From Nakazawaea peltata (lineage: Eukaryota > Ascomycota > Pichiomycetes > Alaninales > Pachysolenaceae): a stretch of DNA of 64,000 bases. Below the pieces are notes generated by a model. It saw only the letters and a program-made list of their open reading frames with translations, was not told the origin of the DNA and ran no database searches. The stretch lies in assembly GCA_001599355.1 (NCBI GenBank), contig BCGQ01000001.1, positions 1,491,135 through 1,555,134 of the forward strand. The letters are read 5' to 3'. The stretch's first letter is position 1. Each line of letters opens with the position of its first letter. Positions 38,172 through 42,585 of the stretch are shown in pieces. The position numbers were made by a program, and so were the translations under genes.

Positions 38172-40445
38172 CTACTTTCTATGTACCCTCTCGACGATTC
38201 TTTCCAAACTCATCTTGACATCTCCCTTAGGGAAGTTGGCCAAATCATAGTAAACAGGGGCCAACTCGACCAACCATTCAGGTTTCACCTTGGTGACAGT
38301 TCTAATATAGTTCTTAGAAGTCAAGACAAACTCATTATAGATAAGCCATTCGCTCTCTTTACCTAAGGTCGTGGACGGATGGATCAAAACGTCCTGATTG
38401 TCCTTAACGGTCAAGAAGGTCTTAGATCCGGATTTCTTCTTGGCGACCTGCATGAAGAATCCTGCACATAACAGTTTACGGATATTATCCCAATAATTAC
38501 GGTCGTTGAAGTCTGTGGAGACAAGGGCGATGTCGGAACGTTCCATGATTCTTTGCAACTGATAACGGACATTTTCGGCACTTTTCAACGAACGATAACT
38601 CAAGAAATGGTCACGGCACCATTGATGGACACCAATTTGTTGGGCCTCATCGGATTTGAAGGCATAATATACATTGACAAGGGTCAAATGGTCACCATCC
38701 GGATGAGCAAACTCCATCTTCAGTTCGTCGGCCCGTTTTCTCAGGGATGCTGGTCTTACGAATACGTTTGGTACAGATAACATGGCCACTACAGTTAAGA
38801 TCTCCTCGGAACAACCAAACTCAGGGGATCCGATTAACATTACGGCAAGCATTGGATCCAACGGGAACTGAGAGGTGAGTCTACCAAGGGCAGTCAATTC
38901 TCCTTCATCATCAAGACAAGCAAGATAATTTAATTCTTCCAAAGCTCTCATCATGGTCTCAGGCAGCGGTGGGTCCATGAAATCAAAGTGGACCAAGTCA
39001 TCAATACCCAATTTTTTCAATTCTAATACTGTAGAGGCAAGATTAGTACGTAAAATTTCCGGGTAACTTTGCTCGATCAACTCTTTCTTGAACAGTTCTT
39101 CGGTATACAAACGGAAACATTTACCAGGACGAGTTCTACCAGCTCTACCAGCTCTTTGTTGGGCAGAAGCCTTGGAAATCGGAGACACAAGTAATGACTC
39201 GACTCTAATACGAGGATTGTAAACTTTTTGCTTAGAAAATCCGGGATCTACAACGTATACAATACCATCAATTGTCAAAGAAGTCTCTGCAATGTTGGTG
39301 GAAACAATGACTTTACGACCAGGTCTTCCTCCTGGGGTGAATGGTTCTGGAGCAGGCTCGAAAATACGTTGTTGTTGGTTAGGAGGTAACGAACCGTACA
39401 ATGGATAAACACTCATTGGACCACATTGTTGTTCACGAATCAATTCGTCGGTCTCAAGAGAAATTTTACGGCATGCTTCTTCAATTTCTTCTTCACCAGT
39501 AAGGAAAACCAAAATATCCCCTTCTGGTTCGGTGGCATGGATTTGTAAGACGGTACGAATAGCAGCATCAAGGTAATCTCTTTGGAATTCCGGAGTGTAA
39601 TAGATCTCTACAGGGTGAGTTCTACCTGGGACAGCCAATAATGGAGCCTCGTTGAAATAAGATTGGAATTTTTCAGCGTCCAAAGTAGCAGACATGATGA
39701 TGATCTTCAAGTCAGGTCTTCTTTCTACGACTTGTTTCAACAATCCCATCAAGATATCGGTGGCCAAAGTACGTTCGTGCAGCTCATCTAAGATAATACA
39801 CGAGTATCTGTTCAATTCATGGTCCTCCATGGCTTCTCTTAAGAGCATACCATCGGTCATATACTTCAAAATGGTCTTGGAACTTGTCTTATTCTCGAAA
39901 CGGATACTGTAACCTACTTCAGCACCCAACAGAACATCCATTTCATCGGCTACTCTCGCAGCAACACTCATAGCTGCCACTCTTCTAGGCTGAGTACAGG
40001 CCACTTGACGTCCCAGTAAGTGAGGTAAGTCATCGTACAAGACAAATTGAGGAATCTGAGTGGTCTTACCAGAACCGGTCTCACCCACAAACACCATGAT
40101 CTGTGTAGAGTGGAAAATCTTCAAGAATTCGGCTCTTTGGGCATGCACCGGCAAGTCTCTTCTCACCTTTAAAATATCGAAATATTTCTGAGTAAAAGGT
40201 TGGCCTGTGAATGGGTTATTGGTTCCAGACTCCAACTTCTCCGCTTGCTTGGCGGTAGTCTGGTGTCTTACAAGTCCACTGAACTCCCCAGCGTCATGGA
40301 TCTCCATCTTTTGCTCCTCCCTAGGATGAGGATGTCTCTTCAACTCTTCTTCGGCTTTTTCTGCGACATGTTCAGGGACAGATGAATCTACCGCCGATGA
40401 GGAGTGGGTCTTGGATTTTTTTTTGGGTCTTTCGGTTTCACTCAT
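38172..40445 (-). CDS. PRP43: DEAH-box RNA helicase Prp43
   Basis: A 757-residue helicase that disassembles post-splicing lariat spliceosomes and acts in ribosome biogenesis. Motif I is [10 protein letters not shown], motif III SAT, motif [11 protein letters not shown], and the ratchet and OB domains extend to the C terminus, matching yeast Prp43 in length and order. Motif II is encoded D-E-CTG-H (CTG codon 222, plus-strand 39780-39782): it is a true DEAH box only if CTG is Ala. The conserved DPPAPETM segment likewise has CTG at the Ala (codon 494, plus-strand 38964-38966). The N terminus is basic and low complexity, the site where G-patch activators act in other yeasts. It shares a 349-bp divergent promoter with COQ8. 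Confidence 0.97.
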
Positions 40446-40794
40446 GGTAAGGAATGAATGAGAGTTATTTTTGGATCACAATCAATACGTATTGGTGGTA
40501 TTGAGGGTGGTGTGGATGGCGAGTGTTATCTAGAGAGAGCTCATCTCTTGAGAAATTTTTTAGGAGAAAATTTTTATGATTGGTGAGATGTGCACGACCT
40601 GTGCCCGGTTTTGCTCGTGCCCGGCAATGCCTGTGCCCCGTTTTCCCTTTTCCCTCTTGAGCTTCTCCAACTTTTTCTGCCCTCAACTTCTCCCACTTTC
40701 TGCCCTCAACCTCCCACTTTCTGCCCCAACCTTCGAGCGTTAGCCCTGAAAAATTCACACCAATTCTTCTCTCCATACCTTCCCCCACCATACC
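40446..40794. promoter_or_regulatory. Divergent promoter between PRP43 and COQ8
   Basis: 349 bp. It has one GTCGTGCAC element near the middle. The COQ8 side is strongly pyrimidine-rich on the plus strand, with a three-fold direct repeat of TTCTGCCC(T)CAAC (about 40675, 40698 and 40719). Confidence 0.6.
40590..40598 (-). promoter_or_regulatory. GTCGTGCAC motif between PRP43 and COQ8
   Basis: GTGCACGAC on the plus strand, 145 bp from the PRP43 start and 197 bp from the COQ8 start. Confidence 0.5.
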
Positions 40795-42585
40795 ATGACC
40801 TTAGCAAAAACCATCTACGACCTGCTTGTGATTGGAACAGCCTCTGCAGAGGTCCTCAAAGGATCTCTGAAGATGTTGGTCACTCAAATTGACCGTTGTT
40901 CCAAGCTGAACGTGCTGACTACCGCCGTAGGCTCTCTGTTGACGGCTCCATTCCGTGAACTGGATGAGTTCTGGACCGAAGTTGACCGTGCCAGATATGG
41001 AAGAGCCGGCGCTGTGACTCCACAAGACTCGGCCATCGATATTTACCTGCTTGCCAAACAAAAACTGGACCAAGCTCGTAATGGGACTCTCGGATCGGCT
41101 ACAATTGGAGATTCTCATTTACAAAGTTCATCAAAGAGACCACAATTGAACTCAAATAGTAAGAAACCAACTGGAATTAGAAGCTATTCTCAGACTAGTG
41201 GACCTGATGATTCCAAACCACCGAAAAAGGCCCCTCAAGTCAACTTTGAGCCACCTAAAATGTCCTCATCCGCTGTTCCTTCCTCCCGTCTTGAGAGATT
41301 ATTCCATTATGGTCTGTTGGCGGCTGGAGTTGGAGTTGGGATCGCAACTGAATCTTTGAAGAACTACGCCTCTGGAAAGAAAACCACCTCGCTGAAATCT
41401 CTTCTTTTAAGCCCGGCCAATATCGAAAGAATGCTGAAAAAGTTCTCTAAAATGAGAGGAGCTGCTTTGAAGATCGGACAGCTCATGTCGTTCCAAGACA
41501 ACGCAGTCTTGCCGCCTGAGGTGCAACAGATCTTGATGAGAGTCCAAAACTCGGCTCATTATATGCCTCCAGCCCAATTACACAAGGTTATTGCTGCTCA
41601 ATTGGGTGAAAATTGGAGACTGGACTACTTCCAATCGTTCGATGACGTACCAATGCTGGCTCTGTCGATCGGTCAGGTTCACAGAGCCGTCACTAAGGAC
41701 TTGAGACGTGTAGTAATGAAGGTGCAATACCCTGGAGTGGCCGACTCGATCGATTCCGACTTGAATAATCTCGCTATCTTATTAACTGCTTCCCGTATCT
41801 TACCAGCAGGTATGTTCTTGGATAAGACCATTGATAATGCTCGTTTGGAGTTGAAATGGGAATGTGACTACTTGAGAGAACTGAGTAATATGATCAAATT
41901 CAAAGAATTATTGAAAGACGACGACGTTTATCAAGTCCCAGAAGTGATCGGCGAGCTTAGTGGTGAACATATCTTGACTATGGAAGAGATGAGAGGTGTG
42001 GAAATCATCAAGGGAGATTGGGATCAAGAGACAAAGAACTGGATAGCCGCTAACGTGATGAGATTGTGTCTTAAAGAGATTGCTCAATTCCGTACGATGC
42101 AGACCGATCCCAACTGGGCCAATTTCCTCTACAATCCCGAGACCCACAAGGTTGAATTGTTGGATTTCGGAGCTACTCGTGAGTTCAGTAAAGAATTCAC
42201 AAGTGATTACGTAGGACTTTTAAGAGCAGCAGCCAAACAAGACCGTGATCTGCTGAAATATTACAGTGAGAAGATGGGTTATTTGACCGGGTTGGAAAGT
42301 AGTGCGATGGTCAATGCTCATATTGATTCGTTGATCGTAGTTGCCGAACCATTTTCATCGTTGGTATGTCATGGCAAGCCATTTGATTTCGGTAACCAAA
42401 CTGTCACCGACAGAGTTCGTTCCAACATTGGGTTAATGCTTAACGAGAGATTAACCCCTCCTCCAGAAGAGACCTACAGTTTACATCGTAAGTTGAGTGG
42501 GGCTTATTTGTTGTGTGCTCGGATGAATGCGGTGATCGATACCGAGAAGATCTTCAAGGAGACCGTTGGGTTCGAAGAGCCATGA
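40795..42585 (+). CDS. COQ8: Coq8 (Abc1), atypical kinase-like ATPase of coenzyme Q biosynthesis
   Basis: A 596-residue UbiB/ADCK-family protein needed for coenzyme Q synthesis, acting on the matrix side of the mitochondrial inner membrane. The KxGQ motif is seen as KIGQLMSFQD (about 227). The alanine-rich loop that replaces the kinase glycine loop is encoded CTG-GCT-CTG-TCG (residues 288-291), giving AAAS only with CTG as Ala, followed by IGQVH. Later landmarks are MKVQYPG with the ATP-binding Lys, the EMRGV stretch, QTDPNWANFLYN and LLDFGATR. The N-terminal region is about 95 residues longer than baker's-yeast Coq8 and low complexity in the middle. A single membrane segment is plausible near residue 170. 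Confidence 0.96.
   Translation: MTLAKTIYDLLVIGTASAEVLKGSLKMLVTQIDRCSKLNVLTTAVGSLLTAPFRELDEFWTEVDRARYGRAGAVTPQDSAIDIYLLAKQKLDQARNGTLGSATIGDSHLQSSSKRPQLNSNSKKPTGIRSYSQTSGPDDSKPPKKAPQVNFEPPKMSSSAVPSSRLERLFHYGLLAAGVGVGIATESLKNYASGKKTTSLKSLLLSPANIERMLKKFSKMRGAALKIGQLMSFQDNAVLPPEVQQILMRVQNSAHYMPPAQLHKVIAAQLGENWRLDYFQSFDDVPMLALSIGQVHRAVTKDLRRVVMKVQYPGVADSIDSDLNNLAILLTASRILPAGMFLDKTIDNARLELKWECDYLRELSNMIKFKELLKDDDVYQVPEVIGELSGEHILTMEEMRGVEIIKGDWDQETKNWIAANVMRLCLKEIAQFRTMQTDPNWANFLYNPETHKVELLDFGATREFSKEFTSDYVGLLRAAAKQDRDLLKYYSEKMGYLTGLESSAMVNAHIDSLIVVAEPFSSLVCHGKPFDFGNQTVTDRVRSNIGLMLNERLTPPPEETYSLHRKLSGAYLLCARMNAVIDTEKIFKETVGFEEP

Follow-up and report, generated by a model that had tools for sequence, protein, structure and literature searches.

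How is the codon CTG read in the stretch of Nakazawaea peltata DNA considered here, a window of 64,000 bases from contig BCGQ01000001.1? From the letters of this window (the term denotes the whole stretch that was analysed), an original prediction had held that in-frame CTG codons occupy alanine positions in several conserved proteins, and that CTG is accordingly translated as alanine. The observation was partly confirmed by the analysis presented below and is real in the main, and the interpretation of CTG as alanine is supported. The best explanation, to which we assign a probability of roughly 97%, is that the window is nuclear DNA of a budding yeast in which CUG is translated as alanine, i.e. 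one that uses the CUG-Ala nuclear code listed as NCBI translation table 26.

The window has a G+C content of 41.9%. From the 25 open reading frames (ORFs) of at least 150 aa listed in it, 22 were kept; the three that were dropped (5990-6586, 10716-11291 and 25947-26447) each overlap a longer ORF on the opposite strand, and the final ORF of the set extends beyond the end of the window. The majority of the 22 ORFs gave matches of yeast type or of general eukaryote type. CTG is present in 21 of them, and accounts for 278 of their 14,280 codons (approximately 1.95%, with 21 stop codons counted in). It is 25th in rank among the 64 codons in the window, and would represent about 24% of the putative alanine codons there.

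CTG at conserved alignment columns

For ten of the 22 proteins, homologues were sought among the PDB sequences. CTG was translated as leucine in the queries, so that the resulting alignments could not lean towards alanine. From 34 chain alignments, 15 chains (18 rows, since three of the chains supplied two domains) were tallied for nine genes: two chains each for RPT6, PRP43, COQ8, OCT1, KNS1 and eIF4G, and one each for FCP1, NAB2 and DSK2. The species labels of most of these chains are those that we presume to apply. A column was considered conserved if it contained at least two references, all of which agreed; only the six two-reference genes therefore qualify, and the three single-chain genes were counted in the all-cells figures only. 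Near-identical chains, a reconstructed COQ8A ancestor and a distant ABC1 protein (u120846) were left out of the tally, as were query positions 361-438 of FCP1 (the end of its first domain, where quality was low), ubiquitin domains 2-9, and a TAF8 chain for which the alignment was too weak (E value 0.0009). A total of 49 CTG codons out of 278 fall within the alignments, 21 of them in conserved columns.

It is apparent from these 21 columns that the tally proposed with the original prediction favours alanine, and neither leucine nor serine. The conserved residue is Ala at 12 columns, Lys and Val at two each, and Gln, Ser, Glu, Thr and Leu at one each. The 12 Ala sites are spread over all six genes (four in PRP43, three in COQ8, two in RPT6, and one each in eIF4G, KNS1 and OCT1). 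CUG is thus mostly aligned to alanine, as table 26 has it, and is mostly aligned neither to serine (table 12) nor to leucine (the standard code). Seven CTG codons had been singled out beforehand in Prp43, Coq8, Kns1, Oct1 and Rpt6, and all seven were found in frame at the coordinates claimed for them. For five of the seven, Ala is the residue in both references: those in the Prp43 DEAH and DPPAPETM motifs, the two in the Coq8 loop, and that in GKTLLARAVA of Rpt6.

The remaining codons provided the controls for this tally. Codons for alanine coincide with Ala at 67 of 92 conserved columns, and the share of Ala at CTG does not differ from theirs (P=0.19). When all codons with at least five conserved columns were considered, the standard residue was the commonest for 52 of 53, CTG being the sole exception; eight sense codons with fewer than five such columns were not judged. 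In these alignments CTG shares the residue profile of the alanine codons, while the 52 other sufficiently sampled codons are standard. A likelihood comparison over the 20 residues likewise placed Ala first, and left Leu outside the six best.

Standard decoding of CUG as leucine, in which case the CTG sites would represent true substitutions or sequencing errors, is exceedingly improbable when set against these controls. The other five leucine codons coincide with Leu at 146 of 179 conserved columns and with Ala at only one of the 179, whereas Leu is found at one of the 21 conserved CTG columns (P=2e-12), and the Ala shares of the two groups differ with a Fisher P of 6e-13. The same conclusion is reached when the columns are chosen by residue. 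CTG fills one of the 147 conserved-Leu columns that carry a CTN or TTR codon, although about 29 would be expected from its overall share of 19.8% among these six codons (P=3e-13), and it fills 12 of the 96 conserved-Ala columns, compared with one (a TTG) for the other five leucine codons together. In favour of leucine there are the single CTG column conserved as Leu, two Pfam families, and the tendency of CTG partners in a pair of paralogues towards Leu and Met, all of which are described below.

Serine is the residue to which the same codon is reassigned in the Ser1 and Ser2 clades (NCBI table 12; Candida, Ascoidea and Saccharomycopsis), and it was the second best residue in the likelihoods. 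The lead of Ala over Ser was nevertheless 11.6 log10 units for the conserved columns, and 17.7 for all 86 cells. Ser codons coincide with Ser at 51 of 69 conserved columns and with Ala at five, in contrast to CTG, for which Ser is found once in 21 (P=1e-8) and for which the Ala share is also different (P=4e-6). Moreover, the residue in the references used is Ala at the DEAH, DPPAPETM, Coq8-loop and GKTLLARAVA positions. A serine code such as that of the Ser1 or Ser2 clades is, on these grounds, highly improbable for the window, where the residue is Ala.

Pfam scores and evidence for other decodings

Pfam scans were performed for 20 of the 22 ORFs (all but 21301-22896 and RPS2), each translated with CTG as Ala (table 26), as Leu (table 1) and as Ser (table 12); the ORF at 15131-16339 gave no Pfam match. 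Table 26 gave 64 protein-family rows, of which 43 families in 19 proteins were selected manually for summing. The other 21 rows were omitted as overlapping or redundant, and some overlapping C2H2 and RRM families are still present in the sum. The totals were 3546.0 bits for Ala, 3516.4 for Ser and 3431.7 for Leu, the last being the smallest of the three. Ala was the best code for 16 of the 43 families, Ser for 10 (in each case by no more than 1.6 bits over Ala) and Leu for two, with the three codes less than 0.5 bit apart for the other 15. Within the sum, Ala gained most over Leu for Peptidase_M3 (397.0 versus 368.2) and ABC1 (230.3 versus 211.7). The contest between Ala and Ser is closer in Pfam, but it is settled for Ala by the finding of a single Ser among the 21 conserved columns.

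Several results weigh against the reading of CTG as alanine. Two of the codons singled out beforehand did not turn out as claimed: that of Kns1 at 2555-2557 (+) is aligned with Thr in both CLK references, and that of Oct1 at 54239-54241 (+) with Glu in neurolysin and Ile in a plant oligopeptidase. The references for these two proteins are distant, and the sites are therefore unsupported here, yet not disproved. A further CTG in the Kns1-like kinase is the one that stands at a Leu-conserved column (Table 1). For the GCR1_C and Zap1_zf1 families, Leu was the best code, exceeding Ala by 3.3 and 2.6 bits, respectively. When all 49 covered CTG sites are considered, Ala is found in at least one reference at 18, Leu at five and Ser at three, from which it follows that most of the covered sites are variable and carry little information.

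Also to be counted with these results is a pair of tandem paralogues at 18900-20519 and 21301-22896 (−), for which 338 of 531 aligned residues are identical with CTG translated as Leu. A DUF3533 match was obtained for the copy at 18900-20519, the only one of the two covered by the Pfam scan, and the paralogues are presumably SNG1-like. Two CTG positions are common to both copies. The eight informative CTG partners comprise two each of Leu, Ser, Gln and Met, and no Ala, in contrast to the alanine codons of the pair, which have Ala as the partner in 46 of 80 cases. In the likelihood calculated from these eight pairs, Ala comes seventh, and Leu is 3.6 log10 units ahead of it. A single base, however, separates CTG from four of its eight partner codons (TTG, ATG, ATG and CAG), and every GCN codon is at least two bases removed, so that variable sites could pair in this manner even if CTG encodes alanine. 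We would thus attribute the non-alanine partners to variable sites and mutation.

The possibility was also considered that CUG is ambiguous, i.e. that it is read mostly as Ala, and to some extent as Leu or Ser, through mischarging or competition between tRNAs. The best-fit mixture does contain 9% Leu or 14% Ser, but a mixture with either residue was only about 1 log10 unit above pure Ala. Leu, Ile, Val and Met taken together are somewhat enriched at CTG (16 of 86 cells, versus 34 of 333 alanine-codon cells; P=0.04), and the Leu and Met partners in the SNG1-like pair are in keeping with this. For Leu alone the counts are six and 13 (P=0.24). Since CTG is a short mutational step away from codons for Leu, Val and Met, the enrichment could arise without ambiguity. 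We consider ambiguous decoding unlikely, with the proviso that misincorporation at a low level is beyond what sequence tallies can measure. Decidedly unlikely, too, is either that the yeast stands outside the known Ala clade and represents one more independent change of CUG from Leu to Ala, or that it reads the codon mostly as Ala with a fraction of Leu.

The coordinates of the CTG sites that bear on the reading of the codon as alanine, and of the ORFs that contain most of them, are presented in Table 1. In the RRM protein gene included there, the passage of Q-CTG repeats into Q-GCT repeats is suggestive, but no more than suggestive, of an equivalence of CTG and GCT.

Table 1. ORFs and individual CTG codons discussed in the text. 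The CTG codon is bracketed within its flanking residues; references are the PDB chains aligned to each protein.
Feature	Coordinates	Strand	Remarks
PRP43-like DEAH-box helicase ORF	38172..40445	−	757 aa, 8 CTG; best PDB match Prp43 chain 3kx2_B, 1345.2 bits
PRP43 CTG, motif II D-E-[CTG]-H	39780..39782	−	Ala in both Prp43 references
PRP43 CTG, DPP-[CTG]-PETM	38964..38966	−	Ala in both references
PRP43 CTG, LYTEE-[CTG]-F	39093..39095	−	Ala in both references
PRP43 CTG, NIRK-[CTG]-L	38472..38474	−	Ala in both references
COQ8/ADCK-like atypical kinase ORF	40795..42585	+	596 aa, 17 CTG; Pfam ABC1; COQ8B chain 9tvk_A, 434.2 bits
COQ8 CTG, A-rich loop position 1	41656..41658	+	Ala in COQ8B and COQ8A
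COQ8 CTG, A-rich loop position 3	41662..41664	+	Ala in COQ8B and COQ8A
COQ8 CTG, RE-[CTG]-SN	41881..41883	+	Ala in COQ8B and COQ8A
RPT6 26S proteasome ATPase ORF	7631..8824	−	397 aa, 3 CTG; chain 6fvw_J, 735.6 bits
RPT6 CTG, GKTLL-[CTG]-RAVA	8252..8254	−	Ala in both references
RPT6 CTG, SLGI-[CTG]-QPKG	8309..8311	−	Ala in both references
RPT6 CTG, QRN-[CTG]-LN	8699..8701	−	References differ: one Ala, one Glu
eIF4G CTG, MIF4G domain	4643..4645	−	Ala in both references
Kns1-like CTG, kinase domain	2192..2194	+	Ala in CLK1 and CLK2
Oct1-like peptidase CTG	53468..53470	+	Ala in both references
Kns1-like kinase CTG	3191..3193	+	Sole CTG at a Leu-conserved column
RRM protein (45149-48613), six CTG in a row, followed by three Q-[CTG] and then two Q-GCT units	48335..48385	+	Suggestive of CTG/GCT equivalence only

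The CUG-Ala code and its decoding

The CUG-Ala code had been described in the original prediction as one already known, and this is correct: it is established for Pachysolen, Peterozyma and Nakazawaea, genera that now constitute the family Pachysolenaceae in the order Alaninales. The code was reported in 2016 for Pachysolen tannophilus, as recounted in PMC5951914, and the account given there for Nakazawaea and Peterozyma is based on a BLAST tally combined with mass-spectrometric data for key positions in 18 yeast species (Krassowski 2018, PMC5951914). A later screen is described as having predicted meanings of CUG that matched the known distribution in 453 of 462 yeast species (PMC8629427). 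From the code alone, the organism would be placed in the CUG-Ala clade, the Alaninales, as a species of Nakazawaea, Peterozyma or Pachysolen.

The window resembles the Ala clade, as characterized in PMC5951914, in that CUG is aligned to Ala, the other testable codons are standard and the gene content is yeast-like. According to the same source, the clades with a changed code use CUG relatively rarely and tend not to have it at well-conserved sites (PMC5951914). The window differs from that statement, which is made at the level of clades, in that CTG ranks 25 of 64 and is present inside the DEAH motif. The frequency of the codon, a quantitative matter, is the sole point of tension with published work. 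The CTG fraction of the putative alanine codons is slightly lower in the aligned parts of the proteins (49 of 243) than elsewhere (229 of 902), with P=0.11. The RPS2 gene (32148-32903) contains 24 GCN codons and no CTG, for which the probability is approximately 0.001 at the rate of the window. The absence of CTG from this one gene would be in keeping with decoding of the codon by a minor tRNA, and there may be avoidance of CTG in highly expressed genes. The G+C content of the window is similar to the 42.3% given for the genome of Nakazawaea ambrosiae CCF 6643 in PMC10106607, a resemblance in composition only.

In Ala-clade yeasts, the tRNA with the CAG anticodon is described as deriving from a tRNA-Ala gene, and the alanyl- and seryl-tRNA synthetases as the two without a requirement for particular bases in the anticodon (PMC5951914). 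By analogy with this literature, CUG in the window would be decoded by the product of a tRNA-Ala gene whose anticodon had mutated to CAG, and which would have replaced the ancestral tRNA-Leu(CAG). The alanyl-tRNA synthetase would tolerate the CAG anticodon because it requires no particular bases at those positions. No tRNA genes were found in the window with ARAGORN or with Rfam at gathering scores, searches by which an intron-bearing tRNA could be missed.

Other features of the window and consequences for annotation

Two intergenic features of the window were also observed. At 43061-43230, between COQ8 and the RRM gene, a 13-base unit, AGTAGAGTTGATG, is repeated in tandem 13.2 times with 96% matches, in a stretch that is richer in G than in C (skew of 0.29 and 0.28 at 42-44 kb). 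A gap of approximately 5 kb (27092-32147) separates the gene for a DUF7082 protein from RPS2. Within it, no ATG-started ORF exceeded 126 aa, no inverted repeat exceeded 29 nt, and Rfam gave no match. The gap may represent a centromere or a large regulatory region.

Although the code itself is already known, the finding matters for annotation. Translation of the window under table 1 or table 12 would alter 278 residues in the 22 ORFs, including one in the DEAH motif of the helicase. To our knowledge, changes in the meaning of sense codons are very rare in nuclear genomes, and the window is usable as a compact positive control for methods of code inference. In the Nakazawaea genome paper, genes were predicted using AUGUSTUS with Saccharomyces cerevisiae S288C as the reference species, and the main text mentions neither 'CUG', 'codon' nor 'genetic code' (PMC10106607). 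Given that gene-prediction setup, as it is described there, the risk of mis-annotation may be a live one.

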